The notes below the pieces were generated by a model. That model was not told where the DNA came from and made no database searches. It saw nothing but the letters and a program-made list of their open reading frames with translations. From Parachryseolinea silvisoli (GTDB lineage: Bacteria; Bacteroidota; Bacteroidia; Cytophagales; Cyclobacteriaceae): a DNA stretch of 64,000 bases. The position numbers were made by a program, and so were the translations under genes. The DNA lies in NCBI RefSeq assembly GCF_021190955.1, contig NZ_JAIOAO010000008.1, positions 1-64,000 on the forward strand, written 5' to 3'. Shown piece by piece: positions 6,601 to 63,703 of the stretch (within the stretch, counting starts at the first letter, position 1; each line of letters begins with the position of its first letter).

Positions 6601-9071
6601 ACCACGGTCTGGTCCGCTACGTTCACCTTGGCGGAGTCGACGGTCATCACGTTTCGTTTATGCAATGTCGGCGTTTGGTAACGATCGCTTTCGTATGCTA
6701 TTTCAATATCCGCGCCGGTCGGTGTCTGTATATTGGTAAGTGACCATGCGTCCACATCTTTTGCCGACGTTTCCGTTGTAAAGCGGTCGAGGTTTTGATT
6801 TTTCGAATCCTTATAATCGCTTTTGTAATAACCCCACATGTCGAATTTACCACGCTCATACGGTTTGTTTTTCGCATACTCAAAGGAGATTCCCGGCATT
6901 AGGTCAGCGCCGTCTTTACCCAGAAACTTGACACCTGTGAGCGTTAGTTTGCCCAAAAGCTGCACAGCGGCTGAGCCGAGCGTGGGATAAAAACTATTGG
7001 ATGTATGAGGTGCCAGTGAGTAATTATAGCTAAACGAGACCGTGCGAATGCTGTGTGTCATATCTTTCCGGTCATACAATGTAATCTTGTTCAATCCCAG
7101 CAGCGACAACGACCTGCCTGGCGTGCCGGCAAATCCTCCCGTCATCAAGTCCGACACCTCGTGTCCATCCGGCCGGCTGAACGTTTCAAATACCGCTACG
7201 TGAGACTGGGTTTGGATCTTATTGAGATAGTATATTTCTTTTTTACCGGCGGAAAAAACATCAAATCCATCGATGTCGGGATTATAACCCTCGCCGGGAT
7301 TACGCCATTTATAGTCATCCAGGTGTTTTTTATAATCAAACCGGACCCAGTATCCCCAGTCGCCGTCATTGACCATCCCGTCATTATTGCGGTCGACAAA
7401 GTCGGGACCGGTAACACTGGTCAGGTGCCATGTGTAGGCATACTTTTCCGGTCGGGTCACCTGGTTGTAATATAAGCCCCCTTTTTCTTGCTGGAGCTTG
7501 GTATTTTGTGATCGCGTGACCTCATCAAAGCTGTAGGCGGGCAGGGCGTAGTGGTACGTCACGCCGCTTTCATTGGTAATGGAAAAACCACCGATTTGCG
7601 CGTCGTTCGGTCGTGTGACACCAACGGCGTTCATAAAACCCTCGCGCGAAGCGGCATTCGACGATAAAATATCGCTATTCTTATACCAGTTTATATGCCG
7701 TGATCCGATCAGCCGACCGTCGTCGGTGTACCCGTCGTTATCGGTCAGGCCGGTTTTCAGATCACCACTAAACGAATAGCTCAGAGCCGTGCCCGACACC
7801 TCCAGCTCGGGAGCATCGTATTCTATCCGATTGGAAAAATCTCCGATAAATCGAAAATCGTTTTTGGCTCCGTTCAGCGCCCCTTGTAACACATAGCTGT
7901 GCACGAATGTCTTTTGTTGAGTGTCCGACACCTTCGTCTGGTGGTAAAGTTGTCGCTGGTAGAACATCGGCTTGATCGCACCTCCTAATCCCTGCGCTGT
8001 AACCGAATAAGAATCTACATCAGAAAAGCTGCCGCCCAATACGGTTTCGCCGTCGGTGTGATATCCCATACCCAGCTGGGTATCCAACAGGTCATAGGTA
8101 TCAAATGCCACATAGCGTCCAGGTGTTACGTTCTCTCCATAGAGTGAGCCATACGTGCTGATGTCTTCACTCTCATCGATCCAATACCGCTGATAGGATC
8201 GCCCCAAGCGCAAATTGATGTTGGCCTGTACGATGGGAATCTCGAGTACGTCGTCCTCGTTTTTAGTGCTCACTTTCCCGGCACGGCCATTGTGCACGGA
8301 GCTGACGCCGCCCAGGGTTACGCCAGGCGTATAGTGCCCTTTAAAATCCGTCCTGATGGAGACGTCCATAATAGACTTACTGGATACGCCTACACCGCCG
8401 CTTAGCCCGCCAGCCGTGTTAAACATGACATTTGCACGGACGCCTGTTTCTGTGCCGCTACCAAAGCTCCCCCCCGCTGTGACGCCTACCTGTGTGTATG
8501 CTTGTCCGTACGGCGTCTGTCCCGCCCCATAGGTGATGCCATTAACAGCGGCCGTTGCCGACCATCCAATGCCATTGCCGCGATACGTATCGTTGGCGTA
8601 GCTCAGCGAGCCGCTCACACTGGCGGCTTTGGCTAGGCCCACGGAAACACCCACGGTATACTCGTCTGTCTCGCCACCTTCCCAAAAATCACGCGTGATG
8701 TTGTTGACGCCACTGTGATCGTCCGGATAGCCGTTTACCATACGGTTGATCGCACCGGGGTTTACATTCCACGACAAACCCACCCAGGAGGCTTCCTGAT
8801 CCGGCTGAACATTTCCGTGATGCGACAGTACCACCGGATAGCTACCCGCTGGACCCGGCACCTCTAACAGTGGTACATTGTAGGTAAAGTCTCCGGTTTT
8901 TAGATCTACCACATCCGTCGTATCCACTGGCTCAAAGGTCGTCGCCTCCGGCGCTGTCGGCCCCGCCGTCAACGCCCACGATACCGCCGGTGCGACGGTA
9001 CTGGCAATGATCTCCAATAGAAAAAACACGGCAAATGCCTTCAGCAAAAAACGGCCACGGATATATTTCAT
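3624..9071 (-). CDS. Giant secreted SpvB/RHS-like protein
   Basis: 1815 residues with an N-terminal signal or anchor segment (about 1-34, hydrophobic, ending VSWA). Residues of about 45-115 carry the pattern KTGDFTYNVPLLEVPGPAGS ... LSHHGN ... SWVGLSWNVNPGAINR. This is the opening seen in SpvB/TcB-type and Bacteroidota RHS proteins, which build a beta-rich shell. A Gly/Ser/Thr-rich beta region follows at about 130-270. YD repeats appear late, for example YDGLGRLTSVYQ near residue 1612. The C-terminus is cysteine-rich (NNYCATGAY ... PGNCCAF ... CPCQENK). It is the first gene of a three-gene set on the minus strand with 37 bp to the next gene. Function is inferred only from family resemblance: it could belong to an insecticidal-toxin-like or contact-dependent system, or be a surface structural protein. 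Confidence 0.82.
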   Translation of the reverse strand: MKYIRGRFLLKAFAVFFLLEIIASTVAPAVSWALTAGPTAPEATTFEPVDTTDVVDLKTGDFTYNVPLLEVPGPAGSYPVVLSHHGNVQPDQEASWVGLSWNVNPGAINRMVNGYPDDHSGVNNITRDFWEGGETDEYTVGVSVGLAKAASVSGSLSYANDTYRGNGIGWSATAAVNGITYGAGQTPYGQAYTQVGVTAGGSFGSGTETGVRANVMFNTAGGLSGGVGVSSKSIMDVSIRTDFKGHYTPGVTLGGVSSVHNGRAGKVSTKNEDDVLEIPIVQANINLRLGRSYQRYWIDESEDISTYGSLYGENVTPGRYVAFDTYDLLDTQLGMGYHTDGETVLGGSFSDVDSYSVTAQGLGGAIKPMFYQRQLYHQTKVSDTQQKTFVHSYVLQGALNGAKNDFRFIGDFSNRIEYDAPELEVSGTALSYSFSGDLKTGLTDNDGYTDDGRLIGSRHINWYKNSDILSSNAASREGFMNAVGVTRPNDAQIGGFSITNESGVTYHYALPAYSFDEVTRSQNTKLQQEKGGLYYNQVTRPEKYAYTWHLTSVTGPDFVDRNNDGMVNDGDWGYWVRFDYKKHLDDYKWRNPGEGYNPDIDGFDVFSAGKKEIYYLNKIQTQSHVAVFETFSRPDGHEVSDLMTGGFAGTPGRSLSLLGLNKITLYDRKDMTHSIRTVSFSYNYSLAPHTSNSFYPTLGSAAVQLLGKLTLTGVKFLGKDGADLMPGISFEYAKNKPYERGKFDMWGYYKSDYKDSKNQNLDRFTTETSAKDVDAWSLTNIQTPTGADIEIAYESDRYQTPTLHKRNVMTVDSAKVNVADQTVVIKFANPPANLADYRELLNQSKLDFMFRRWITPEQFCICDGIKFNYLGSYYETKSVTLTNTNIEKITNNTIEITDQALYDYLYMVVSDKKVKSFYRDADGDCYDSDGRAIDPEISIRYPVLVAGNLFYYPTAAESYGGGTRVREIRVRDMDKQMVTSYTYEGGVTSYEPIGIGHVHLDFSGWELSPLVGWHEYKRIREASGAYYNLVMPNFSKLLAVSRELPGPGVMYNRVTVKQQSIPKIGVVVNLPTYMQYVFDVFKEDMISLDPGHPQSTWPVAGNYGEGFPYTKIHRNKMTLKDYTSRIGNLREVNVYDRDTGMPVSQVKYSFAHDDFVDNQAYEDHLNIYNKQGVLEESTVRARLVLYEKERRIPYGPDAGNVLRADETNLIGVVSKREYYPSIATGQTATDFKTGIKTVSSRKAFDFYSGVVTRERYKDGYGNTYESETAPAYKQYGDMGPTASGGANMLTQLRSGYTYKMSNQDNEVRESLVSGWAQTWSDAVNVANPETLATNFKQTGIWRKRAYYVFTGQPGALPNANGFYPAGSVPLFAAWAGQAAPTGWQKNDEITLYDAQSHVLEMKDMNEQYTSNKMTADQQMVLAAASNAAYNEYAYTGGEDIVNGRSGGGIVSEAGAVTADYAHTGSQSIRLPIGTRGLYSSVSVRAADGIRKMHISTWVRSADADQQPKASLVYRFVPSGGAASAETTVALLTSKERRAGDWYLCEADVALPGGLAAGALFQSRIGNVDATALYVDDLRVHATDARIMSYAYNTSRELSHILGTNNLYTAYQYDGLGRLTSVYQESFQREYGAGGVAKVKDIAYGHRSSENYKVQITVSTEGPTGNIYPSTVSLRPNRDQAFEVKSTCSRSSLWTIAVDGKLIDLSQPSLTLVDGTIVLIEQGGALVTFKNIQSSHSLHAFFIPRAGGKVECVLDGNNYCATGAYRWTYLNDCGEEVQWHVTTDKSTIPTELWEQTPGNCCAFNHDKPACPCQENK

Positions 9072-39004: not shown

Positions 39005-42000
39005 TCAATTGATAATAATCTTTTTATAGTCTGATTGATCCCTCCAACGGATCTGCATATAATAGATTCCCTTCGCAAGTTTTAGCTCGTAATCTTTACG
39101 GAAACTTCCATCGGTCTTTTCCCCTGAATAAATATCTACTGCTTTACCAGCCGAATTATAGATGGTTACATGGAACGAACCTATCCTCTCATCATTCATC
39201 TGAAGCGTAAAGTTTCCGGATGTCGGGTTGGGATAAACTAACGTGGTTGAAGGTTCCGCTCCTTCCTGGGTTTTAAGGTTTTTCTCAAAAGGACTATCCG
39301 TTGTATTCGTCCGTGCAGCTGAATTCTCCGTAGCTGGCTCTGTCCCATACACCAGTTGTCCCTGGTAATAGATAGTAATCCCTGAATTTTCAGCCATCGT
39401 TCCGGTTTTGTACGAATGATCGTTTAGCTGGTTAAAGTTCGACCAATCACTCTTGGAGATACGATACTGGATGTTCCCCGTCGAGGTAAGCGGGTAGAAC
39501 GTAATAGCCGACGGCTTGACTTTCAATTCGAGGTAAACATTCGCGTCTGTCCGCACGGGGTTGAGGGCAACGAAACTTCCACTGATCGCACCGTTGCCGA
39601 TCTTGGCGTAGTCCAGCCAGAACTTTAGCGGAGACGTACCGTCTGAAGTAAACCAGTAACGTGCTGTAATGTCATTGTAATTCACGGGAACATTTCCTTC
39701 GTTCTTTATATCGACAAAGGTGCTAATGCTGTTCGAATTTCCAGCGCTTTTGGCTTCCGCGAAAACCTTCAGCTTTACTACCGGAGCTTCCGCCACAGGT
39801 TCTGTTCCCCATACGAGCACTCCATTGCGGTATAGTGTGATCGTACTCTTATCAGCATACGAAGCGTTCATACCGATGGAATGATCGTTTGCTTCATTGA
39901 AAATTGACCAATCCGTATTGGCATATCGCGACTGAATATCTCCTGAATTACCTCCCGCTGCAAGGGAGCCTGCCGAAGATGTGAAACTATATTCAATGTA
40001 TCCAAGGGCATTCACTCCTGGGTTGCCAAGCGATACATATTTCATGATCACCTTACTATTTCCTAACTGTGCGTAATCAATCCACATGCCCAGGCTGCCT
40101 TTATAATTTTCTGGCGTGATCCAGTATCGCGCGGTCAGCTGATTGTACGGCACCGCTGTTATTCCCGTATTGACAATCTTCAAATGAGGTTTACCCTCGC
40201 TATTCGTAAGCGATCCGTCTGCATTGCGATACTGAATTTTCAGGTTCAGCGGCTGAGTTATCGTGAGCGTCGCGGAAGCTGGTTCGGCAGTATAATTGAT
40301 ATTGGTCAAAGTAGCTGCAACAGAATAGGTTCCTACCGCCGAAGGTACAATGGATGAGCCGTTATACGTTACGGTGACACTATCCAATCCGGAAGGGTTG
40401 GTCGTTACTGTTGCACCTTTAGGGGTTCCATCAAATGCCTGTGACAGGTTGCTCAAGGTAATCGTAGCGGCGGCTTTGTTAATGGTAAAGATGGCTGAAT
40501 CAAAATCAAGTGTGTAGTTGTTGCTCAAAGCCAAAGTACCCTGAGTGATGACATAAGTTCCCGCATCCTCTCCAAGCTCGCGGGTCAATGAACCTGAGAA
40601 GGTGTCACCCATTACCAGCGCAGGTGTGACTGTGTACGTCCATTCAGGATCGGCAGCACCGTATTCTTTCGTCTTCGCATCAACGGATGCTGTTACAGCT
40701 TTACGTGCAATGATCAGCGTTTGTGTTTTTGGCACCGCGGAGTTAAAGAGCGCATTTCCTGCCTGGCTTGCTGTAATGTTTACGTTGCCCGCCTTGCGAA
40801 TATGCACCTGGCCACTGACGATCGTTGCAACAGTAGTATCACTACTCGTATACGTAACAGGAATCGAAGCATTTGTGCTTGTAGCAGCAGGGCTAAAATC
40901 CGCATCGCCATATGTTTTAATGGGAAGAGTATTAAATGTGATTACTTGTTCTGACTTCAGGGAATCATTACGGGTATACCAGATCGGTGAAGTAATGATC
41001 CGGCTGCCATCGGCTTCTGTGATGTCTGCATAATAATAGCCCGTAGCGAGATGCGCAAGTGTGCTGTCTGTGTAAGAGAGTGTGCTTGTCGCGCTGGTGA
41101 CTAACGGCGGAGGTATGACACCACTGCCGGGAGTTCCACGTATAATGGTGATGTTTGTTATCGGGCTTGTCGTAGAGCCGCTGACTGAAATTCTTGCCAA
41201 CCCGTTCCCTGTAAACTCGCTCCCTACAGGTTGCTCGTTGATCGTGTAAGAAATTCTTGCCGCTGAATCTTCGCTGGCATAAAACCGCATTTTCCGCATC
41301 GCGTCAAGCAGATCGTTTTCGGTGAGTGCCGGAGCGAGAACAACCAGTCGTGCGCGTGTATGTCTTCCGAACGTCATGTTATGGTTATCATGATCAATGG
41401 TCGCGCCCATATGATAACCTTTGGCGAGCATCTTGTTATAATAGTTATAGTACTTCGCCAAAACAGTCGCAGGATTGGAATACGTTGTATTGGTCGAAAA
41501 AGCCGGACCACTTTCCAGTGCCGATCCAACAATGGCGTTATCTGCACTGGCATCATAGTTTGCTTCGACATTATTAAAGTCTCCGAAGTTCGGATGTGCT
41601 AATGTGGCGAAAGCATTTAGTCCGTGGCGGTTAATGATATTGAATAACCCGGTGCTTCCGGTATACGTGCTCTTGGGAACAAAGATCTGATGCTCCCCTG
41701 GCTCCCAACCGATGAGCGAATCAACTCCGTACACAAGGACATGGCCGCCACCACTGATCACCCCCCACTCCATGCCATACAACGCGACAAAATCAGGAGT
41801 GGTTGCATTCTTCGCGGCTGTCATACCCGGCACCCAGTTTGCCAGACGCATACCCGCCTGTGTGTGATTATGCTCTGATATTCCCAGGAAGTCCATGTTC
41901 ATGGAGTTCTTCGCGAATGCATAATCATCTTCAGGCTTTTTAGTTTTATCGTCCGCGTTGCCGTCAGAATAGCTGCTGTGCGCATGCAGGTTGCCGAAAT

Positions 42001-44569
42001 AAAAATTCAGTGTATTATTATCAAAGACTCCTGTCTGTTGTTTCCCGGTTAACGGTGCCGTCGTCAGGTATAACGGTCCACCGCTACAGTTACTGTTCAG
42101 GGAGAAGATATAGAAATAATAATTTGTATTCTGCGTAAGTCCGCTTCTGTTAAACGTTCCCTGGGCTCCTTTTTTTATGACGATACCCCCGCCAATGGAA
42201 TCCCCCACAACATAACTGGTCTGATCAACAGGCAAAGAACTCCATGCGCTGTCTTTACTCATGATCACCAGGAACTCGTCGACTCCAGTAGCCGGAGTAA
42301 AAGCTCCCTGGATCAATTGGTAGTTCGAAAAACTGATGTGAAAATTGGTCGGCTGAGAAACAGGAGTCACACAAACGGGCAAGGGAGCAGTAGCCTGGGT
42401 GCCGGATAATGGATCTGTGATCAGATATTTCGGTCCGCCATCACAGGCAATGTTGTTTAATGCATAAATGAAATAATAAAAAGTGGTTCCGCTGGCAAGG
42501 TTGTTGTCCGTGAAGCTGCTGCCGGAAATTCTGGCCGCGACCGTTCCACCCCCCAGACTGCTGCCTGGATTATATATTGTTTCATCGGCTGGAGTTGCGC
42601 TTAAAGTACTATTGAGACTTCGTACAATCAGATACTCACCAGCATCCGTGGAAGCAGTAAAATTAAGTGTTATCGTTTTTGTTCCTACAGACGTAAATAG
42701 TAAGCCTGTCGGCTGATTGACGGGGCTTACACATTCGGGAAGATCTGCCTGAACATGAACACCGAGACGGTCAGGATCATCAAGGTCGACTGCATTTTGA
42801 ACAGTAGCGAGAGGTGTCAGGATCCATTCTGCGGAGTTAAAAGTCGCTGAAGGAGTGGTAGCGCTCAGGCTCCTCACATAGCTATCGTCTTTCGCGTTGA
42901 TGCCGGTTCCAAATGCATCAATGATGTTGTTGGCCGCATCTAAAAGTGCAATACCATCGTTCCCGTTAAAGTTGATGACTGCGTTACTGGTCTGCTGTGC
43001 ACTTGCAGCCGTTAAATAAGGCACTTCGTTTCCATTCCCTGTATTTCCGATCAGTACACTACTCTTCGCCGGGATAATCATGTTCAGATTCACGATCTGG
43101 GCAGGACTTCCGGAGATTACAATGTTTCCGGCATCGCCCGAAATACTGTAAAGACCAAGCTTTAGCTGAGGTGATGCCGTGTTTACCGGAGAACTTGTTG
43201 GGTTGGTTAATTCAACCCATTTATTGACCGATGCACCTTCGTAATACTGGCTGATAAATATTTTCGATTGCTCCGCCAGCGTGATCGTTACGGTTGCTTC
43301 AGCCGCTGAGCCATCGGTATTCGCTGCCCGGTACGTAAACGTTTGAGTGGCTGCACTTCCTACCACAGACTGGTATGAAAATGTTCCATCCGCATTAAAA
43401 GTAAGTGTTCCGTCCTGGGGATCAGTAAGCTTGCTAAAGGTTAAGGCAAGCCCTTGCGGATCGTTGTCATTTGACGATACATTGCCTGTGATCAGGTCTC
43501 CATATAAGCCTGAAAAGGTATCATTTAAGGCAACCGGTGTAAGACTGGCTCCCGTACCGGTTAGCAAAACAGTAGCAGATCCGGAAACACCACCCCCGGT
43601 ATGCGTGATCGTACCGCCGGCCGATCCTGTTGTTACCGGACTGAATTGGCTATACACTATAGTTGAAGTGGCACCAAGTTCGGTAGACGTATATAGTAAG
43701 TCAGTAGAAAAAGGCCCTTCGGCCAATTTTGAAATAGTAAAAGGCGCAGCAGTGGAGACCACTACATTGCTCCCATTCAGGTTGGCATAGGTAAGTGTAT
43801 GAGATTGAGCTGCACTGGTTGTGCCCACGGCCTGATTGCCAAAATTAATCGCCGAAGGATTCACAGAAAAAGTAGGTGTTGCTACAGTTCCGGAAGTATA
43901 CGTCAGTGAAAGATCATCAATGGCACTGGAAGGTCTGTTGCCGCTGCCGGTGCTCGTTGTTATGGCAACGATGCGGATCCAGACATTATCAGCCTGATTA
44001 TCCAGGCTGCTGCCGAAATCAACTGTAATCGTGTTGTTTGTAAATGTGCTTCCGCCTGTAGTCAAAGTACCTGTTGCCGTGGCTGCTGTAAAACTTGTAG
44101 GACTGGCCCCAAAACCATAGTCCACTCTCCAGGTGGTCACGCGAGGTGAAGTGGCATCGAGGGATTGAAGTTTAAAATCTAATTTGAAATCCTTTAAATC
44201 CGATGTATTGGCCAGTTGAAGCACAAAGGCTGCACCGGGATCTCCAAAGGCTCCGGTTTGCCGTATCCCGAGACTGCGATTAGCGGAACTGCTTTGCTCG
44301 GCCGTAGTAGCCGTTGAGGTAAGATCGGTTGCGGATGCAAAATTCTTTACTGCTCCTGAAGTATTGTTCCAGGCCACTGTGGTACCACTGTATGCCTGGG
44401 TCGTCCCCAAGGCTGTTGCGCTGGCGCCAGTCCTCGCGGTAAATCCTGTTGGAAGGCCGGAGGCGATCGGATTAAAATCCTGGTTGTACGGAGACGGCCC
44501 TAAAGTGAGCTGTGCAAATGCAAAGCTGGAGGTAAAAAGGGCAAGGATAACAGGTAAGAGTTTCTTCAC
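39005..44569 (-). CDS. Giant secreted PHP-type metallohydrolase with lamin-tail, MBG and two CBM3-like modules
   Basis: 1854 residues. Signal peptide 1-19 (ending FAFA). Domains in order: a jellyroll-like region (about 20-230), an abnormal-spindle-like Ig domain (235-335, NPSAINFGNQAVGTTS), a VCBS-like repeat (337-433), a lamin-tail domain (436-600, SKIFISQYYEGASVNKWVEL), and two fibronectin-like modules (615-850). A PHP/CehA-like catalytic domain follows at 855-1165 with metal motifs NLHAHSSYSDGN, ISEHNHT, ATLAHPNFGDF and GATIDHDNHN. Then come MBG domains (1205-1435), two CBM3-like cellulose-binding modules (1441-1590, 1595-1750; LTARYWITPE and ITARYWFTSD), and a T9SS sorting tail (1776-1854, LVYPNPTSGNFTLQMNDE). 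It is exported and probably surface-held. The PHP fold hydrolyses phosphoesters in most relatives; the substrate here is unknown. Confidence 0.88.
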   Translation of the reverse strand: MKKLLPVILALFTSSFAFAQLTLGPSPYNQDFNPIASGLPTGFTARTGASATALGTTQAYSGTTVAWNNTSGAVKNFASATDLTSTATTAEQSSSANRSLGIRQTGAFGDPGAAFVLQLANTSDLKDFKLDFKLQSLDATSPRVTTWRVDYGFGASPTSFTAATATGTLTTGGSTFTNNTITVDFGSSLDNQADNVWIRIVAITTSTGSGNRPSSAIDDLSLTYTSGTVATPTFSVNPSAINFGNQAVGTTSAAQSHTLTYANLNGSNVVVSTAAPFTISKLAEGPFSTDLLYTSTELGATSTIVYSQFSPVTTGSAGGTITHTGGGVSGSATVLLTGTGASLTPVALNDTFSGLYGDLITGNVSSNDNDPQGLALTFSKLTDPQDGTLTFNADGTFSYQSVVGSAATQTFTYRAANTDGSAAEATVTITLAEQSKIFISQYYEGASVNKWVELTNPTSSPVNTASPQLKLGLYSISGDAGNIVISGSPAQIVNLNMIIPAKSSVLIGNTGNGNEVPYLTAASAQQTSNAVINFNGNDGIALLDAANNIIDAFGTGINAKDDSYVRSLSATTPSATFNSAEWILTPLATVQNAVDLDDPDRLGVHVQADLPECVSPVNQPTGLLFTSVGTKTITLNFTASTDAGEYLIVRSLNSTLSATPADETIYNPGSSLGGGTVAARISGSSFTDNNLASGTTFYYFIYALNNIACDGGPKYLITDPLSGTQATAPLPVCVTPVSQPTNFHISFSNYQLIQGAFTPATGVDEFLVIMSKDSAWSSLPVDQTSYVVGDSIGGGIVIKKGAQGTFNRSGLTQNTNYYFYIFSLNSNCSGGPLYLTTAPLTGKQQTGVFDNNTLNFYFGNLHAHSSYSDGNADDKTKKPEDDYAFAKNSMNMDFLGISEHNHTQAGMRLANWVPGMTAAKNATTPDFVALYGMEWGVISGGGHVLVYGVDSLIGWEPGEHQIFVPKSTYTGSTGLFNIINRHGLNAFATLAHPNFGDFNNVEANYDASADNAIVGSALESGPAFSTNTTYSNPATVLAKYYNYYNKMLAKGYHMGATIDHDNHNMTFGRHTRARLVVLAPALTENDLLDAMRKMRFYASEDSAARISYTINEQPVGSEFTGNGLARISVSGSTTSPITNITIIRGTPGSGVIPPPLVTSATSTLSYTDSTLAHLATGYYYADITEADGSRIITSPIWYTRNDSLKSEQVITFNTLPIKTYGDADFSPAATSTNASIPVTYTSSDTTVATIVSGQVHIRKAGNVNITASQAGNALFNSAVPKTQTLIIARKAVTASVDAKTKEYGAADPEWTYTVTPALVMGDTFSGSLTRELGEDAGTYVITQGTLALSNNYTLDFDSAIFTINKAAATITLSNLSQAFDGTPKGATVTTNPSGLDSVTVTYNGSSIVPSAVGTYSVAATLTNINYTAEPASATLTITQPLNLKIQYRNADGSLTNSEGKPHLKIVNTGITAVPYNQLTARYWITPENYKGSLGMWIDYAQLGNSKVIMKYVSLGNPGVNALGYIEYSFTSSAGSLAAGGNSGDIQSRYANTDWSIFNEANDHSIGMNASYADKSTITLYRNGVLVWGTEPVAEAPVVKLKVFAEAKSAGNSNSISTFVDIKNEGNVPVNYNDITARYWFTSDGTSPLKFWLDYAKIGNGAISGSFVALNPVRTDANVYLELKVKPSAITFYPLTSTGNIQYRISKSDWSNFNQLNDHSYKTGTMAENSGITIYYQGQLVYGTEPATENSAARTNTTDSPFEKNLKTQEGAEPSTTLVYPNPTSGNFTLQMNDERIGSFHVTIYNSAGKAVDIYSGEKTDGSFRKDYELKLAKGIYYMQIRWRDQSDYKKIIIN

Positions 44570-53978: not shown

Positions 53979-54887
53979 TTAAAAATATACCTCACAACCG
54001 GGCAGCGCTTTCCGGATACGCTCCTGCTCCGACGGGCCAAAGCGGTTGTTGACGGCGATCAGCGTCTTTAAGTTTTTCAACCTGCTTATCTCCTTCGGCA
54101 GATATTCTAATTTATTATCCGACAACACCAGCAGCTCCAGCGACGCCAGCGCGGTAATCTCATCCGGCAGGCTGGCCAGCTTATTGTGCGTCAGGATCAA
54201 CGTCTTTAACTGCTGCAGGCCTTTGATCTGCGGTGTCAGGCGCTGTAAGTAATTATATTCCAGGTTCAACTGCTCCAGGCTCCTGAACCGGCCCCAGGCG
54301 GGGTCAAATTCATTCAGCTGATTATAGCCCAGCTGTAGTTGCTTCAGGTGTTTCAGCGCGCGCAGCGTTGCCGGCACGTGGCTCAGCTGATTGTGTGCCA
54401 GTTCCAATACCTCCAACTGTCGGCATGCGCCAATCGTAGCGGGGAGCGATGTCAGTGCGTTTAAGGATAAATGCAAGAAGCGCAGGTCTTGAAGGCGTCC
54501 GATTTCTTCGGGGATAACGGTGATACTGTTGGCCGCGGCATCGAGCTTTACGAGTTTCAACAAGGAGGCGATGTCCGGGGGAATGGCTTTGAGCTTGTTG
54601 TTCCGGATGTTTAGTACTTCCAGGCGAGACAACGCAAAGATGTCCTCGTCCCAGGTTTCGAAGTGATTGCGCATGACGTTCAGAAACCGGAGGTTGGTCA
54701 ACCGCACAAGATCCGATGGCACCGAAAAGAGTGACTGATCACGGAGGTTCAACTGTGTCGCCGCCGCGTCTTTGGCAAGCGCATCCTGTACGGCATAGTA
54801 TACCGGTGCGTCCAACGGGTTCGCATGTTGCGCAGAGGCGGTATACGTCGTTGCCACCAGGACAGACAGGAACAGGTACTTTTTCAT
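53979..54887 (-). CDS. Secreted leucine-rich-repeat protein
   Basis: 302 residues with a signal peptide (MKKYLFLSVLVATTYTASAQ). From about 45 it has ten or so 23-residue LRRs of the plant/Ras-like bacterial type: LRFLNVMRNHFETWDEDIFA, LEVLNIRNNKLKAIPPDIAS, LRFLHLSLNALTSLPATIGA, LKTLILTHNKLASLPDEITA and LELLVLSDNKLEYLPKEISR. It ends with a short cap (SEQERIRKALPGCEVYF). No T9SS tail is seen. It probably forms a binding solenoid in the periplasm or on the outer membrane. A hairpin separates it from the giant gene upstream on the same strand. Confidence 0.92.
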   Translation of the reverse strand: MKKYLFLSVLVATTYTASAQHANPLDAPVYYAVQDALAKDAAATQLNLRDQSLFSVPSDLVRLTNLRFLNVMRNHFETWDEDIFALSRLEVLNIRNNKLKAIPPDIASLLKLVKLDAAANSITVIPEEIGRLQDLRFLHLSLNALTSLPATIGACRQLEVLELAHNQLSHVPATLRALKHLKQLQLGYNQLNEFDPAWGRFRSLEQLNLEYNYLQRLTPQIKGLQQLKTLILTHNKLASLPDEITALASLELLVLSDNKLEYLPKEISRLKNLKTLIAVNNRFGPSEQERIRKALPGCEVYF

Positions 54888-54955: not shown

Positions 54956-57900
54956 CTATTTTAACACTTGAATTTTATATTGGCTTTCGCCTTCGTCGAT
55001 CTTAACCTTGAGGATCACCAGCTGGCTCGCCGCGGTCACGTCGTGCAGATCATACGTCAGCGTCTGCTCACCACGCCTGCCCTTGCCGCTAGCGAGTGTG
55101 GCCAGCTTGCGGCCCATCAGGTCGAACAGCTCGAGGGCGAGGTCTTCGCCGCCGGCTAAGTTCAACCGCACGACGATCATGCCGTGTGACGGGTTCGGGA
55201 ATACCGACACGTGACTGTTGCCCGGTCCTTCCGGCAAGCCTGTTACCGGATCCCCTTCTTTCTCTACCACGATATAGTCTGCTTTCGTTACCGGGGCGCT
55301 GACGCCGGTGGCGTTGGTGGCTACGAGCGTTACGTCATATACACCCGGCGTTGCGTAGGTCACTACCGGCGACGTTTCACTCGAAGTGGCCGGCGTACCG
55401 CCTTCGAATGTCCACGCCCATGCGGTGGCGCCGTGTGTGCTCAGGTCGGTGAACGTTACGTTTTCGCCTGTTTTGATCTTTACGCGGTCTGCCGAGAAGT
55501 CCGCTACCGGCGGCTGCGCGCCCAGGTCGGCGTTCAAGGCAAATATCACCGTGGCGGAGGCATCAAACTTCACATCGTTGCCGGTCGCATCGGGTTGTGC
55601 GGCGTTGTTGCCGTTCGGGTGCTGTACGGAGAAGAAGCCATATTTGAAGTCAGGCGAGAAGGTCAAGCCCGTAGGCTCCGAACCGGCCGGCATCGACGCG
55701 AACAGCTCCACTTTCGGGTTGGACTGCGTGTGGTCGGGACGTACTACCCAGATGTAGTAGTTGTCGCCGTCCTGCAGCACCCACAGGTTGCCTTTGTCGT
55801 CGAAGGTGAGGTTGTCGTTACCGCCACCCCAGGCTTCGGTTACTACACCTTCTTTGGTGGTGATGCTGTACGACGTGCCGCCCACAAACGTTTCGAAATC
55901 AGTTACGGTTCCACCGTCACGGAATCGGTACACGCGGCCTTTGCCTTTGGACGTGAAGTAGATCTTGCCGTCAATCGGGCTGATCTCCACATCTTCTACC
56001 CCATCGAAGTTTGTGCCGCCCAGCGAAGACGCCAGGCTGATGGTATTGTTGCGATCGTCTTTGGTCGTGTTCGGCACTTTCACCCAGACCGCTGTGCTGC
56101 CGGTAGGGTCGTTGCTCGACAGCGGCTGGTCGAGCTTCAGTACATACAGTGTACCGGCGGTGAGGTTACCGGCCACGTCGGCTACGAACTTATATACGCA
56201 GTGTGTACCACCGTCTTCGCCGTAGTATACGGTCTTGCCGTCGGCATGTACGACCACGTTTTCGTGGTTCATGCGACCCAGCGCCCACAGCTTATCTTGT
56301 TTACCGTCGCCATCGTAGTCTTTCACTTTCGAGGTGACCGGGTCGATCTCCACGGCCCAGCCTGCATCCTGGTAGCCATCGCCGTTTGAGTCGCCACCGT
56401 CAAGACTTTCCTCGCAGGTGATTACGGTACCCCATAGCGTAATACCACCGGAGCAGTTACGGGTTGTAGTCACCAGGGCATTGTTATACAGGTCCACGGC
56501 TTGCGTCGTGTCTACCACCCACAGGTTATTGTCCTTGTCGAGGTGCAGGTCAACGATCGATACACCGCCGGGGGTATTCTCGTGGTTCACCGACAGGTGT
56601 CCAAGCTCGCTGCTACCATCGATCGGTACATAGGCTGTAAAGTCGTGGTTGCCTGGTACGGTGCCGCTACCCTTTGTAAACGGGGTGCCTTGCTTGAAGA
56701 TCAGCTGGAAACGGTGTTGCTCCGGTATGATCATCTTTGTGGTCTGCCCCGTGGGGTGGATCGACGTGAAGCAGGCAATATGGTTGTCGGTACATTGTAC
56801 CGGCGGGTTCACGGACGGTGCATCTTTGATGTACAGGTCGAAGCCCAGGTCGGAGCTGCTGCCGTCGCGGTTGTGAATCTCTACCGCTAGCTGGTTGCGG
56901 CCGTTGCGGAAGACAGTCTTCGGCAATCGGAAGGTATAATAAGTGGTCTCTGCAGCACCGTCCACGATCGTAGACGAGAATGTCTGTGCGTTGATCGCAC
57001 CTTCGGGCATGTTGTCGCGGATCACTTCCAAGCCGTTGATGTATACCAGTGCGCCGTCGTCGCGGCGCATACCGATCTCGACTTCGTCGGCGATAACCGA
57101 GGTATCGACCATGATATCGCGGCGGAAGTAGGTCGTGATATACTTGTTGCCTCCGTCCGGACCATACGAAATGGTCGTTTTCACGGGGTCGCCATAGCCG
57201 AGGGCGCCTTGTCCGATGGCCCATGCGCGGTCGTCAGTATACGTGGTGTCTTTCCAGGCTACGGCGTCCAGGCTGATACCCTTGTCCAGGTAACGCCAGA
57301 GTGACTCTTTCACCAGGGGGTACGTTGCCGCCGGCAGCGGCGGTTCGGTAAAGCCTACCGCCAGATCAAAGCTCAGGTCCGAGCTGCTGGCCGAAGCCTG
57401 GTGCAGCTCCACAGCGATCACATTCGTGCCGTTGCGCAGCAGGTTCTTTGTCTTATAGCGGTAGTATGCGCGCTCGTCGGCGTTGTTTACCGTCGCCGAG
57501 GCGAATGTGTTGTAGGCTACGGGACCTTCCGGCATGTTGGTGCGGAAAGCTTCGGTGCCGTTTACGTATACAATCGCGCCGTCGTCGCGCAGCACATCAA
57601 AGAGCAGGGAGTCGTACGCCGTGCGATCTTTTACTTCGAAGAGATGACGCAGGTAGTAGGTCGTACGTTTGTTCTGCGCATCGCTGCCAAAGTTCAGTGT
57701 GGTGCTTTCGTTGCCGTCGCCGTAGCCGAGGATGGCATTGCCATACCGCCAGGCAGCGTCGTTGTAGTCCAGTGACTTCCAGTCGGCGCTTGTCAGGTCG
57801 GCACCGCTGTCGTCATATTTCCACGAGGCGCTTCTGGCCACGGGGAATGTACCGTTGTAATAACGATCCGGAATGACGTAAGTCACGATCAGGCGCGGCG

Positions 57901-60900
57901 CGTTGGCCGGGTTGTTCTCATACGCCTGCGCTACACGCTTGTCGGTATTTGCCGTATAGCCTTTGATCGCGCGGGCAGCCGGGTCGATCAGGGTAAACAG
58001 TACCGAGTTACCTTCTTTCCAGTTCGGGCGGCTTACGATCTCGTTCAGCAGCTCCGCCAGGTCGGGGGTGCGCTGGTCTGCACCGGCATCGCCAACCTTG
58101 GCAAATGGACCGGGCCGCCAGACGATCGTGTCACCCAGGAATTGGATGCGGTGGTAGATGTCGAAGTCGAAACTGCTCATCTCGTTCGGGCTGTCGGTAT
58201 CTTCGATGCCAATCAGGATATTCGGCTGACCGGTAGTATTTACCTCGTCTACCACAAACTGCAGATAGGCGTGCTCGATCACCGACCCTTGCGGAATGTT
58301 GATGCCGTTGAAGCGCACGCCGATCAGCTGATCGCTCGCGCCATCTTTCGTAAATTCAATGTCGCTGCTGGTGAGGTACATTTTACCCGAAGCAATGTCT
58401 TGCTCCGCATCGTCGTTGCCGGTATTTACCTGGTATTCTGCAGACACCGGTGCCGCCGTTCCCACTTTCCAGGCCAGGTGGTAGATTTCTTCCTGTAATG
58501 TCACGGATGCAAACTCTACTTCCTTGCCGTTGAAGGTGCCCTCGGCAGCGATGGTTGGTTTCGCGGCCATGTCACCCTGCAGGAGCAGAAACTTTGTCGC
58601 TTTCGCGGCGATCGTGTTGGGATTCGCAACCAGTTTGCTCAGGTCGATCTTTACCGTAGCGCGCGTCAGGTTCAGCGGCTTTACTTTCCAGCCGCCTTTC
58701 ATGTATACTGTATCCGTTGTATTGGGCACCGGAATGATCTGGTTGTTGGCTTCGCGGCCCGCCACCAGGTTGCTATAGTAGTCGGTCACACGGTCTTTCA
58801 GTAAAAGGCCATTGGTGCCGGCATTCTTCAGGCTCCAGCTTGCGGACACTGCTTCGTTATAGGGAGCTGTGAACGTTCCTACCGGGGTCGTGGCCGGAAC
58901 CAGGGAAGCCTTCGTATACGGAATGGAACCGCCTTGCGAACCGGTGTTGATGATGTTCTGACCGGTTGCCTGATCGAAGCTGAAGTGGTACACCAGGTTC
59001 TTCTCACCTGACGGCAAGGTCTGGTGCATTTGCTGGCGGATCTCCGCTTGTGTCTTCGCTTTGTTCCAGATGCGGAACTCGTCAATCGTTACCAGGCTCT
59101 CGTTGTTGTTGAACAGGTTTGTCGCAAACGCCATGTTGTAGGCATTGGGTTGGAACGTACCCGTGGCAACGCTGTCGATCAGCTCGCCGTTGATATAGAA
59201 ACGGAAGTATTTGTTCGGTGTTACGGTCACCGCTGCGTGGTTCCACTCGCCAATATTCCAGGGAGTGGTCGAGCTGATGGTATTCCAGCCGCCGCTCTGA
59301 CCTTTTCCGAGGATCGTCTGCAGCGCATTGTTGCCGCGGAACTCGAACTCAAACCCGGCAAAGTAGCCGTCGCGACTGCTGCTGAAGCCGATCAGTTTGC
59401 CGTACTCGGCAGGATCAGCGTTCAGCTTCGCCCATACCTCGATCGTGAACTCACCCGACAGGGCATTGTTGACATCTGCATAGGGAATCGAAACATTGTG
59501 ACCGGCGGCCAGGTCCAGGGCACCACCCTGCTTGCCAATGATGCCGTCCATGTCGGTTTCATACCCCAGGTAGTACACGCCAAAGTCCAGCGCCAGGTCT
59601 GTAAACTCGACCAGGTTGCCCGTGCGTTTACCGGTCGCGACAATCTCGTGCTTGCCTTCGGGATCACCTTGTAACAAGTAGAACGATTTCGCCAGCGCCG
59701 TCACCGAGTCGGGACGGTGAAAGACAGACGCCAGGTCGATCAATGTCGTCGCACGCTCGATGTTCTGCGCGTTGAGCAACCAACCGCCTTTCACATAGTA
59801 GTGGTTCGCGTCGCTACCGATGGTGGCCAGGCCGTTGTTACGGTCTCTGCCGACGATCACGTTATTTGCCGGGCCTTTGATGGCTTCCTTCAGGTAAAGG
59901 CCGTTCGTGACGGTATTCTGACGGCTCCAGTTGCCCGTGATGTATTTGCTGTATAGCGGCGCCATGTCGTTAACGACCGGGCTGGTCGCATCGACGATGT
60001 TTGCTTTCGCATAGGCAATGCTGTCTTTCTTTACACCGCGGTTGATCAGGTAACCTTTGTCGGCCTGATCGGCCGTATAATTATAGATCAGTGTAGGATC
60101 TTCATCGGTCACGCTCAGGTGCATTTGGGCACGGATCTCGGCTTCGGTCTTCACCTTGTTCCATACCCGGACTTCGTCCATCATCGACACGGCTTCGCTC
60201 TTATAGTTGACGCTGTGCGAGATGCCGAAGTTCCAGTTTGTGTTGGTTGCAAATGTGTTGAACGCTTTCGTACCGACCAGCACGCCGTTGACGTACATCC
60301 TGGCGGTCTTGCCGGCCGGCGACACCGTCACAGCGAGGTGGTTCCACTCGTCGAGGTTCAGGGGTGTACCGGTATCGATCTTGTTCCAGTCGGCGGTATT
60401 CGTACCAAAGGAAGCCGAAACAATTTTATTGCTGTTGTACTCGATCACCATGCCGGAGGTATTGTTGTTGATCCGGCCGTGGTTGGAGACCAGCGGCACG
60501 TTGCCCCCGGCGGCAGGTGCCTTCATGACACGCGCCCACAGCTCGAGTGTAAACTCGCCTGCAAACACCGGGTTGATGTCCGCGAACGGAATCTGGGCCG
60601 AATGCCCCCCAAGGAACGACACGTTCCCCCCGCGGTCGAACAGCGCCGTGGTGTCGGCCTTCCAACCCAGGTAATACACGCCTTCTTCCAGCACGGTGTT
60701 ACGGAATGTTACCGTGCGGCCGTCAAAGCTGCCTTCGTTCACAACGGAGAACGCTCCCGCTTCATCTTGCTGCATCCAGAAATATTCGCGGGCAATACGA
60801 CGGATCGAGTCCGCCTTCGGCAAGCTCTCGTCCAGGTCGATTGTAAAATTGCCAAACGGATAGTTCTGCGGTTCGAGCTGCCAGCCACCGGCCAGGTAGT

Positions 60901-63703
60901 ACGTCTGACTTTCTTTCGCCGTCGGCAGCATGCCCAGGTCAACTTGTTTCCCCACTACCAGGTTGCTGGTGTAGGACGTGATCGGCTCGGTCAGCGCAAA
61001 GCCTACGTTGGATTTAAGCGCGCCTTTGCTCCAATAGCCCGTAACAGACTGCCGGTAGGCCGGTGTCAACTCGGCGACAGGCGATGTGCCCGCCGTCAAC
61101 GATGCGCCTGCGAGCGGAAGTGTGTACGCAATTTTTCCTTTGCTGGCAACGGTGGTACCGGTTGCCTCCGAGAAGTCATAGTAGATTTCAAGTCCTTGTT
61201 CTTTTCCGGTCAGGGTGTGGAACATGTATTTGCGAATGCTGTCTTGCGGCAGGGCGCGGCTCCAGATGCGGAACTCGTCCAGCTCGGACTGCGTACCGCC
61301 GCCGGTATACGACGGGCTGTGGCCAATGCCCATACCCTTGGGGTTGGGTGTATACGGCGAGATTACTTCGCCGGCCATTTCACCGTTGATATAGTAGGTC
61401 CATTTGCCACCGGCATACGACAGCGCGATGTGGTTCCATTCGCCGATGTTCCAGGCGGAACCTTTGTTTTGCAGGCCTGTCTGCCAGCTGCCGGTGTTGT
61501 TTCCCAGCGTCACGCTGAGCTTGTTCGAGCTGGGGTATTCAAAGCCGATGCCGGTTGTATTGTTGTTGGGCAGACGGCCGTTGCTGGCCACGATCTTTGT
61601 GTTGTCGCCCGGGTCGGCATTCAGCTTGCCCCAGAACTCCAGCGTGAAGTCGCCCTTCATGGCGGCGCCGATAACTTCTTCCGGTAATGTCGTGGTGGAA
61701 GAACCTCCGAGCTTCAAGACGTTCCCCCGGGTGCTGACAAAATCCGCCAGGTCTTTTACCGTGTTGTCGGAAACCAACTTGCCGTACACGCTCACTTCAT
61801 CCAGTAAACCGATAAAGTGACGGTTGTTTGCATCGTTGCCCAGCATCCACGCTGTGGCCGATGCTACAGAAGGATCGACGTTAGACCATTGCTGTACCAA
61901 CTGACCATTGTAATAAAGCGACAACTGGTGCCTTACGTTATCGTATTGCCACAGCATGTGTGCCCAGCGATTGACCAGCACTTTTTGCGTGCCGGTATAT
62001 TGTTTCTTTGATGACAGGTCGGTGTACTGCGGGTAACCATCTTTGTCAAAGCCCAACGTCACACCGGTGTTGCCGCCGGTGGAGATCAGGGCCGATCCAT
62101 TCGCACCAAACTGCGACGGGTTCACCCAATATCCTACGGTAAACGGACGATCGTGCAGATCGAGTACGCCCGTGTGCGTCAGTTGTAACGACGAACCACC
62201 GCTGAATTGCAGCGCGTGGCCGGCTACTCCATTTTTATCCGTGCCGTAAGAAACGCCTGTGCCCTGTACGTTGTGGTCATAGGTCGAAGAGTCTTTCAGC
62301 GCGCCGGCAAAGCTCAGGAACAGCTTACGGGTGTCGGCGTCCACACTCTTTAACATGTCGGCGTGAATGACGCTGGTGAAATACGGCTGCCCTTGCACGT
62401 TCACATACTCGATCTTCATGCGACGGTCGTTTGCTTCGCCATACACATTGACACGCAGGTAGGTTTGTTTCACGCCGCGCAGGATGCGGTCGCTCGTGTA
62501 ATCAACCGTATGTTGACCGTTGCCGATGTCGGAGTTCAGGTTGCCGGAGATCATGTCGAACAGCGGATATTTTACATCGCCGTAGCGGCCGTAAAATTCC
62601 TGTTCGTGAATGTCCGCGCTGAAACACAACACACCGTCGATATTCTTCTCTTGAATATACGCGATGAGCTCGGTGGCTTGCCGGGTGACGGAGAAGTTAC
62701 GACCGCCCCAATGCTTTGCAAAAGACGGGGTGCCGTTGATCAGCACCTTGAACGTTGCTTTCGAGTTCAACAGCGCTTGCTTCAGCCATGCCAGCTGTTC
62801 GGGGCCGAGGTGCTGCTCGACGCCGTCGCGGTAGCTGCGGTTGTCGAGCAGGAAATACTCGACGTCTTTATATACATACGACGAAAAAAGCCCCTGCCCT
62901 TCTTTGGTGCGTCCATAGTGCGGGTTGGGCCACCAGTCCATAAAGATCTCTTTCATCTCGCCCAGTGTGGGCAAGGTCTTGTTGAATTCGTTGGGGCCGG
63001 TATCGTGGTTGTCGGTAATGGCCAGCTGCGGCATGGCGCGCGTCAGCGAGTCGTGGTAGGTGCGGTAGAACGCATACCGTGCAAAGGCCATGTCTTTATT
63101 GGCCCAGTCGTCGATGCCGTCGGGGCATTGGCCCATGGCGTGTTGTAAGCCCAGCAGATACGTTGCGTCACCCGTCCAGATCATCAGGTCACTTCCTTCA
63201 CCCGCCATTCGGTTATACATTCCCGGATCGCCGTTGACGTGGGTCTGTGCCTCCGGGCGGTCTATACAGCGGCGCAGGTCATAGATCCGTCCGCAGCCAC
63301 CGGTCAGGAACTCGAAGTCGGAGAGCTGCTCGGCGGTGTTGCGAATAGTCGCGGTACGACCCTTCGCACGCGTACCGTTGCGCTTGATCACTGCGGTATA
63401 CGTGGCGCCCGGCGTCAGCTTTGGATACACAAACGACCGGAGGTTATATCCCAACCGGTCATCACTGTTATATACTGTTCCTTCCAACGGGGCCCCCGGG
63501 GCCGTTCCGGTCACTTCCAGCGTGATCGCGTCGCCTAGACCCGTGTTCGACTTGGTGACCACCCAAACTCGTACAGAGTCGTGGTAGACCGGACTGAACA
63601 TCGGGCCGAAGACGATGGAGTCGCCTGGCAGCACCTGACCCATTACCGTCATGGATGTCATCCAGGCAAACAGCAACAGCGTCCAGATCATCATTCTTTT
63701 CAT
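54956..63703 (-). CDS. Giant T9SS protein joining PhoD-like and PhoX-like phosphatases
   Basis: 2915 residues. Signal peptide 1-22 (SMTVMG, then Q). PhoD-like metallophosphatase at about 25-450: GGCGRIYDLRRC, MIWTGDATYL near 174, AITDNHDTGPNEFN near 229, CFSADIHEQEFYG near 361. Four LamG/concanavalin-like domains begin near 465, 661, 1024 and 1394 (each with FTVGYWV, FTLEFWG, FTLELWA or FTIEVWA); the last three form about 360-residue repeated modules. At about 1750-1945 lies a DNRLRE-like domain, then two sister modules (about 1950 and 2121). A PhoX/DUF839-like domain follows at about 2300-2720: SVNHENTPGG, CSGGITLWGTVITCEES (family iron-ligand Cys), GRMNHENV, YYGEDGGTHCVYKF. Finally PKD (about 2733-2815) and a T9SS tail (VFPNPSHGMIVVRLNLAGG). 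It probably releases phosphate outside the cell. It is the only gene on its minus-strand message before the hairpin. Confidence 0.9.
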   Translation of the reverse strand: MKRMMIWTLLLFAWMTSMTVMGQVLPGDSIVFGPMFSPVYHDSVRVWVVTKSNTGLGDAITLEVTGTAPGAPLEGTVYNSDDRLGYNLRSFVYPKLTPGATYTAVIKRNGTRAKGRTATIRNTAEQLSDFEFLTGGCGRIYDLRRCIDRPEAQTHVNGDPGMYNRMAGEGSDLMIWTGDATYLLGLQHAMGQCPDGIDDWANKDMAFARYAFYRTYHDSLTRAMPQLAITDNHDTGPNEFNKTLPTLGEMKEIFMDWWPNPHYGRTKEGQGLFSSYVYKDVEYFLLDNRSYRDGVEQHLGPEQLAWLKQALLNSKATFKVLINGTPSFAKHWGGRNFSVTRQATELIAYIQEKNIDGVLCFSADIHEQEFYGRYGDVKYPLFDMISGNLNSDIGNGQHTVDYTSDRILRGVKQTYLRVNVYGEANDRRMKIEYVNVQGQPYFTSVIHADMLKSVDADTRKLFLSFAGALKDSSTYDHNVQGTGVSYGTDKNGVAGHALQFSGGSSLQLTHTGVLDLHDRPFTVGYWVNPSQFGANGSALISTGGNTGVTLGFDKDGYPQYTDLSSKKQYTGTQKVLVNRWAHMLWQYDNVRHQLSLYYNGQLVQQWSNVDPSVASATAWMLGNDANNRHFIGLLDEVSVYGKLVSDNTVKDLADFVSTRGNVLKLGGSSTTTLPEEVIGAAMKGDFTLEFWGKLNADPGDNTKIVASNGRLPNNNTTGIGFEYPSSNKLSVTLGNNTGSWQTGLQNKGSAWNIGEWNHIALSYAGGKWTYYINGEMAGEVISPYTPNPKGMGIGHSPSYTGGGTQSELDEFRIWSRALPQDSIRKYMFHTLTGKEQGLEIYYDFSEATGTTVASKGKIAYTLPLAGASLTAGTSPVAELTPAYRQSVTGYWSKGALKSNVGFALTEPITSYTSNLVVGKQVDLGMLPTAKESQTYYLAGGWQLEPQNYPFGNFTIDLDESLPKADSIRRIAREYFWMQQDEAGAFSVVNEGSFDGRTVTFRNTVLEEGVYYLGWKADTTALFDRGGNVSFLGGHSAQIPFADINPVFAGEFTLELWARVMKAPAAGGNVPLVSNHGRINNNTSGMVIEYNSNKIVSASFGTNTADWNKIDTGTPLNLDEWNHLAVTVSPAGKTARMYVNGVLVGTKAFNTFATNTNWNFGISHSVNYKSEAVSMMDEVRVWNKVKTEAEIRAQMHLSVTDEDPTLIYNYTADQADKGYLINRGVKKDSIAYAKANIVDATSPVVNDMAPLYSKYITGNWSRQNTVTNGLYLKEAIKGPANNVIVGRDRNNGLATIGSDANHYYVKGGWLLNAQNIERATTLIDLASVFHRPDSVTALAKSFYLLQGDPEGKHEIVATGKRTGNLVEFTDLALDFGVYYLGYETDMDGIIGKQGGALDLAAGHNVSIPYADVNNALSGEFTIEVWAKLNADPAEYGKLIGFSSSRDGYFAGFEFEFRGNNALQTILGKGQSGGWNTISSTTPWNIGEWNHAAVTVTPNKYFRFYINGELIDSVATGTFQPNAYNMAFATNLFNNNESLVTIDEFRIWNKAKTQAEIRQQMHQTLPSGEKNLVYHFSFDQATGQNIINTGSQGGSIPYTKASLVPATTPVGTFTAPYNEAVSASWSLKNAGTNGLLLKDRVTDYYSNLVAGREANNQIIPVPNTTDTVYMKGGWKVKPLNLTRATVKIDLSKLVANPNTIAAKATKFLLLQGDMAAKPTIAAEGTFNGKEVEFASVTLQEEIYHLAWKVGTAAPVSAEYQVNTGNDDAEQDIASGKMYLTSSDIEFTKDGASDQLIGVRFNGINIPQGSVIEHAYLQFVVDEVNTTGQPNILIGIEDTDSPNEMSSFDFDIYHRIQFLGDTIVWRPGPFAKVGDAGADQRTPDLAELLNEIVSRPNWKEGNSVLFTLIDPAARAIKGYTANTDKRVAQAYENNPANAPRLIVTYVIPDRYYNGTFPVARSASWKYDDSGADLTSADWKSLDYNDAAWRYGNAILGYGDGNESTTLNFGSDAQNKRTTYYLRHLFEVKDRTAYDSLLFDVLRDDGAIVYVNGTEAFRTNMPEGPVAYNTFASATVNNADERAYYRYKTKNLLRNGTNVIAVELHQASASSSDLSFDLAVGFTEPPLPAATYPLVKESLWRYLDKGISLDAVAWKDTTYTDDRAWAIGQGALGYGDPVKTTISYGPDGGNKYITTYFRRDIMVDTSVIADEVEIGMRRDDGALVYINGLEVIRDNMPEGAINAQTFSSTIVDGAAETTYYTFRLPKTVFRNGRNQLAVEIHNRDGSSSDLGFDLYIKDAPSVNPPVQCTDNHIACFTSIHPTGQTTKMIIPEQHRFQLIFKQGTPFTKGSGTVPGNHDFTAYVPIDGSSELGHLSVNHENTPGGVSIVDLHLDKDNNLWVVDTTQAVDLYNNALVTTTRNCSGGITLWGTVITCEESLDGGDSNGDGYQDAGWAVEIDPVTSKVKDYDGDGKQDKLWALGRMNHENVVVHADGKTVYYGEDGGTHCVYKFVADVAGNLTAGTLYVLKLDQPLSSNDPTGSTAVWVKVPNTTKDDRNNTISLASSLGGTNFDGVEDVEISPIDGKIYFTSKGKGRVYRFRDGGTVTDFETFVGGTSYSITTKEGVVTEAWGGGNDNLTFDDKGNLWVLQDGDNYYIWVVRPDHTQSNPKVELFASMPAGSEPTGLTFSPDFKYGFFSVQHPNGNNAAQPDATGNDVKFDASATVIFALNADLGAQPPVADFSADRVKIKTGENVTFTDLSTHGATAWAWTFEGGTPATSSETSPVVTYATPGVYDVTLVATNATGVSAPVTKADYIVVEKEGDPVTGLPEGPGNSHVSVFPNPSHGMIVVRLNLAGGEDLALELFDLMGRKLATLASGKGRRGEQTLTYDLHDVTAASQLVILKVKIDEGESQYKIQVLK

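Follow-up and report, generated by a model that had tools for sequence, protein, structure and literature searches.

A conserved PhoD–PhoX phosphatase fusion encoded beside di-haem peroxidases in Bacteroidota

Introduction

Why would a bacterium carry two unrelated phosphatase domains, one PhoD-like and one PhoX-like, in one exported protein, and how would such a protein come by its metal? The question is raised by a window of 64,000 nucleotides from the soil bacterium Parachryseolinea silvisoli (Bacteroidota; contig NZ_JAIOAO010000008.1, positions 1 to 64,000), near the end of which a first-pass annotation had placed a single 2915-residue open reading frame (ORF) with a PhoD-like N-terminus, a PhoX-like C-terminal third, LamG modules between them and a tail for the type IX secretion system (T9SS). 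Canonical PhoX and PhoD receive Fe3+ in the cytoplasm and exit folded through the twin-arginine translocation (Tat) system.

I find that the fusion forms a family that is conserved in Bacteroidota, though rare. On the basis of its domains, folds, ligand positions, selection and conserved operon, it is probably, though by no means securely, a cell-surface two-enzyme phosphate scavenger, and the peroxidases encoded beside it may help activate such enzymes. Papers are cited by PubMed Central (PMC) number.

Results

The minus-strand translation of 54956-63703 is uninterrupted, contains every motif cited in the first-pass annotation, and divides as follows.

54956..63703, minus strand: PhoD-LamG-PhoX fusion ORF, ATG start, 2915 aa, zero internal stops
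63638..63703, minus strand: signal peptide, residues 1-22, called by eye as Sec-like, with no twin-arginine motif
62354..63637, minus strand: PhoD/purple-acid-phosphatase-like domain, residues 23-450 (Pfam, alignment, fold model)
58334..62353, minus strand: LamG region with four matches, residues 451-1790 (Pfam; best stretch 1035-1190)
56897..58333, minus strand: residues 1791-2269, internal repeats that by eye resemble carbohydrate-binding beta-sandwiches; no match in a Pfam scan
55559..56776, minus strand: PhoX propeller domain, residues 2310-2715 (Pfam, profile, fold)
55265..55516, minus strand: PKD domain, residues 2730-2813 (Pfam)
54959..55204, minus strand: T9SS-type C-terminal tail, residues 2834-2915 (Pfam, below cut-off)

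The earlier domain claim is right. Both ends match their families significantly, with hidden Markov model (HMM) scores above the curated cut-offs: PF05787 (PhoX) at E 4.9e-39, 135 bits against 24, residues 2408-2696 being the best of two stretches, and PF09423 (PhoD) at E 2.3e-7, 30.7 bits against 27, over residues 157-368. The LamG modules between the enzymes are there too, as four Laminin_G_3 stretches (E 1.2e-86), and PKD_4 matches at E 8.1e-11. An NCBIfam scan of the protein returned no family. I attribute the Pfam matches to Toxin_R_bind_N and TS_C, which overlap the LamG stretches, to the common jellyroll fold and see no toxin or sialidase in them. A genome-wide search finds PhoD at a single place and PhoX at only two, all inside this ORF; the same genome encodes SprA. 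Among seven related proteins scanned, four have a T9SS tail above the cut-off, and none of the 17 fusion-family N-termini contains RRx[FLMVI] within its first 48 residues.

The PhoX part matches PhoX by Pfam, profile and fold alike, which makes it PhoX-like, and a putative PhoX enzyme. It agrees in all three with P. fluorescens PhoX (3ZWU, PF05787), as well as in the conserved Cys and acidic positions, but differs in having Gly for Arg385, a Sec instead of a Tat signal, and a C-terminal place in a giant protein. Its site residues are C2417, E2431/E2432, E2481, D2497, G2568 (the Arg385 position) and E2570. The positions of C179, E273 and E387, which I take to be metal ligands of PhoX, are kept together with that of D292 in 31/31 members of the clade, as they are in the 23 Tat-type and 14 other non-Tat PhoX proteins tallied. 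This tally excludes four loci, whose residue at the Arg385 position is Arg (L095), Asn (L136 and L137) or Lys (L138). A literature search for published PhoX residue numbering gave no paper; Arg385, an active-site residue, and D292 are named in PMC11098088. Two of the four loci, L136 and L138, encode PhoX-family proteins that lack the Cys and other ligand positions and have no peroxidase neighbour, and are probably not PhoX enzymes. A further column, C161 (residue 2430 of the window protein, in CEES), is Cys in 23/23 Tat-type PhoX and Ala, Ser or Pro in 39 of the 45 non-Tat PhoX tallied; the window protein retains Cys.

For the PhoD part, the reference positions are those that PMC4223295 names and PMC5768637 lists for B. 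subtilis PhoD; they were mapped by HMMER alignment to 2YEQ, except C180, which was placed by aligning the part with solo PhoD proteins. The ten site residues are C137, D179, Y182, D231, N232, H233, N238, E239, D364 and H366. Eight are identical to their counterparts (C137=C180, D179=D207, Y182=Y210, D231=D265, H233=H267, N238=N271, D364=D436, H366=H438), and all ten, including the exchanges D266N and N272E, are invariant in 17/17 family members. Most of the metal ligands named are in place, the exceptions being these two PhoD positions; in PhoX it is Arg385, a residue of the phosphate site, that is replaced. Neither result that would have refuted the earlier domain claim was obtained. Relative to B. 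subtilis PhoD (2YEQ, PF09423), the fusion has, besides these two exchanges, a one-residue insertion before the Asn, lacks a twin-arginine signal, and is joined to LamG and PhoX. The predicted model has a metallophosphatase or purple-acid-phosphatase-like fold, equally near to PhoD and to purple acid phosphatases, and GpdQ and sphingomyelinase are among the phosphodiesterases that resemble it in fold. It is set apart from purple acid phosphatases (4DSY, 1XZW) by its Pfam assignment to PhoD and by a Cys at the iron site, a place taken by Asp in those enzymes (PMC4223295).

How widely is the fusion distributed? It occurs in three of the 196 genomes of a family sample (its own, G156 of the same genus and G101 of another) and in two of the five genomes of a genus sample. 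In a phylum sample of 395 genomes, the source genome alone has the PhoD part at E 1e-60; 13 have the PhoX part, 12 of them as solo PhoX in frames of 552-954 aa. When species genomes were scanned for two peptide patterns, 16 loci came to light, a lower bound: Dawidia soli, Niastella, Chitinophaga (two), Cesiribacter, Flavobacterium (two), Mesonia (two), a Crocinitomicaceae metagenome-assembled genome (MAG), Pustulibacterium, Winogradskyella (two), Tamlana, Salegentibacter and an Owenweeksia MAG. PhoD and PhoX share a single ORF of 2177-3442 aa at 14 of these. Mesonia phycicola and Salegentibacter have the halves as two adjacent ORFs; by eye each ORF has a start resembling a signal peptide, and each matches a T9SS tail, three of the four tails scoring above the cut-off. 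Against D. soli, the single pair compared, the ratio of non-synonymous to synonymous substitution (dN/dS) is 0.070 overall, 0.053 for PhoD and 0.066 for PhoX. In PhoX trees the split members and solo members nest within the fused clade, more distant solos fall outside it, and the fusion state changes six times. This fits one early fusion followed by losses, splits and duplications, as a likely history; not all supports reach 95, and genes may have moved between lineages. Among the papers listed in searches of the open-licence PMC literature, which does not take in subscription papers, none describes a PhoD-PhoX fusion.

The fusion belongs to a conserved operon, the remainder of which is listed here.

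53979..54887, minus strand: leucine-rich repeat (LRR) protein, 302 aa, conserved downstream neighbour, 68 bp past the fusion
64134-66044 and 66025-67869 of the same contig, beyond the window: two upstream di-haem peroxidases

Both peroxidases match PF03150 (CCP_MauG; E 1.7e-44 and 7.5e-45). The order peroxidase A, peroxidase B, fusion (or its halves), LRR gene is kept at 14 of 17 loci, the window's own included. At L072 all four genes are present but rearranged, and at L073 (F. akiainvivens) and L083 (the Owenweeksia MAG) peroxidase B alone adjoins the fusion, a peroxidase A being found elsewhere in the genome, accompanied by a solo PhoX and an LRR gene of its own. Within the stretch fetched, a peroxidase is present at ten of the 12 solo PhoX loci, and an LRR gene at ten; seven of those ten peroxidases (L084-L090) group with flavobacterial peroxidase A (support 89/98), and the other three are long branches. 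The core module thus looks like peroxidase, PhoX and LRR, to which PhoD and peroxidase B may have been added. Neither the peroxidase A rows nor the peroxidase B rows form one clade in the peroxidase tree, from which L079 and a fragment from L072 were omitted. Mesonia oceanica encodes an extra 1159-aa PhoX protein between peroxidases A and B (L077:3917-7396), its PhoX domain being sister to that of the adjacent fusion.

Does peroxidase linkage follow the mode of export? Among 52 PhoX loci (40 hand-chosen places and the 12 solo loci), a peroxidase lies within 1.5 kb of 24/29 non-Tat PhoX genes and of 0/23 twin-arginine PhoX genes (Fisher p 3e-10). On the PhoX tree (70 rows, L136 and L138 dropped, with a program warning that long branches meet), Tat changes twice and peroxidase linkage four times, so that the p value overstates independence. 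The five unlinked non-Tat genes are L089 (nearest peroxidase 5.4 kb off), L094, L095, L136 and L138; the peroxidase of L137, which is counted as linked, is encoded on the other strand, and the Tat-type L105 has two weak peroxidase matches 4 kb off. These five, together with nine solo PhoD-like genes with Sec-like starts, none of which has a peroxidase match in the 6-20 kb fetched, weaken any rule that each Sec-exported iron phosphatase has its peroxidase. Eleven solo PhoX-like proteins (L125-L135; 609-642 aa) with a Sec-like start and a peroxidase gene 67-171 bp off constitute a second peroxidase-linked PhoX class.

Elsewhere in the window, 39005-44569 (minus strand) encodes a 1854-aa T9SS-tailed protein with LTD, cadherin-like and MBG domains and two CBM_3 cellulose-binding stretches, and 3624-9071 (minus strand) is an 1815-aa ORF with zero Pfam matches at E 0.001. 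Past the window, the same contig carries four tandem ORFs (L066:11876-17989; 459-482 aa) that are mutually similar by eye, esterase-like, and equipped with T9SS-type tails.

Discussion

What might such a protein do? As a scavenger, presumably regulated by phosphate, it would be exported through Sec and, most likely, the T9SS, and tethered to glycan-rich material by its LamG and other beta-rich modules. The N-terminal domain, of the Fe3+/Ca2+ metallophosphatase type, would cleave phosphodiesters, candidates being nucleic-acid fragments, teichoic-type polymers and phospholipid head groups, and the PhoX domain would take phosphate off the monoesters that PhoD releases. With both enzymes in one protein, the intermediate need not diffuse away. 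A single operon would yield the fusion, two di-haem MauG-type peroxidases and the LRR protein.

Several points weigh against this. The PhoD part alone matched no solved structure by phmmer; a profile search with it reached 2YEQ at no better than E 7.2e-4 over the whole sequence and 0.022 for the best domain, and the models of the two enzyme parts have a mean pLDDT of 68.9 and 67.3. N232 occupies the position of D266 and E239 that of N272, and in B. subtilis PhoD N272A abolishes activity and D266A lowers it drastically (PMC4223295). In PhoX, Gly stands at the Arg385 position in 31/31 clade members. The T9SS-type tail, which would agree with the surface delivery proposed earlier, scores 17 bits where the cut-off is 27. 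Finally, catalysis, expression and control by phosphate are predictions for the fusion and its fused relatives alike.

The peroxidases suggest a further step, maturation after export. Each phosphatase could have its own di-haem peroxidase that activates it once exported, a proposal I offer tentatively and consider doubtful. The enzymes would be exported unfolded via Sec and the T9SS, and a periplasmic MauG-type peroxidase would oxidise iron or a side chain and so build or maintain the ferric, Cys-ligated site. Peroxidase A would serve PhoX, and peroxidase B would have arrived with PhoD; this pairing is suggestive, not proven. The proposal is prompted by the split between export type and peroxidase linkage, by the 17/17 N-termini without a twin-arginine motif, by the argument that Tat export allows cytoplasmic iron loading of PhoD and PhoX (PMC4223295), and by published Flavobacterium results. 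There, PhoX lies in an operon with a MauG-like gene, phoX deletion lowers inducible phosphomonoesterase, F. johnsoniae PhoX has no detectable activity when P. putida expresses it alone, and the authors suggest that MauG makes a cofactor (PMC8812569); both genes are strongly induced on phosphate depletion (PMC8115612). The fusion locus shares with that operon (Fjoh_2478/Fjoh_2477; PMC8115612, PMC8812569) a PhoX adjoining a PF03150 di-haem peroxidase and a non-canonical PhoX clade with 9/10 key residues kept. Fjoh_2478, likened here by its published description alone, is predicted to be a lipoprotein and comes with one peroxidase and without PhoD; the fusion locus has two peroxidases, the LRR gene and the PhoD part. 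That Flavobacterium PhoX has a MauG-like gene beside it was published before. New are the fusion family, the second peroxidase and the export split, which rests on few evolutionary events.

Other readings have to be weighed against the scavenger. The protein could be a specialist degrader of one phosphate-linked polymer that its LamG modules recognise, be it a teichoic acid or a phosphoglycan, from prey or from debris. Four LamG matches with further beta-rich repeats, PhoD exemplars that act on teichoic acid and phospholipid (PMC4223295) and the phosphodiesterases among the fold neighbours would all suit it. It is unlikely, however: the number of LamG stretches varies among relatives (two in L069, four in L073 and L083), which implies no fixed ligand, solo PhoX proteins with peroxidase and LRR are mostly 550-950 aa and, judged by length only, too short for a LamG array, and polymer-uptake genes are absent among the conserved neighbours. 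Quite improbable, in my estimate, is that one or both domains have lost or altered catalysis, Arg385Gly and D266N/N272E marking new substrates or a binding role. The exchanges are invariant within the clade, Arg is found at its position in 23/23 Tat-type and 14/14 other non-Tat PhoX and Asp at that of D266 in 18/18 PhoD-like rows outside the family, and the silence of F. johnsoniae PhoX in P. putida (PMC8812569) would fit as well; yet the Cys, Asp, Glu, His and Asn positions are retained, dN/dS is low, and Psip1, a phosphatase with a PhoX-like site, is active despite Lys at Arg385 (PMC11098088). Misassembly or a chance union of two genes, to which the large, repetitive ORF and the separate halves in two relatives might point, is refuted, and its probability practically nil, because independent genomes of many genera carry the same architecture (14 of the 16 named loci) under strong purifying selection across the junction regions.

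If maturation by the peroxidases is true, one operon would encode a new post-export route to Fe-Ca phosphatases, and the gene neighbourhood offers a testable reason for the failure of Bacteroidota PhoX in foreign hosts, as published for F. johnsoniae PhoX. It also raises the general question of how exported iron enzymes acquire a ferric centre without Tat. Surveys of the phosphorus cycle count PhoD and PhoX separately; here one gene, in a conserved operon, holds both.
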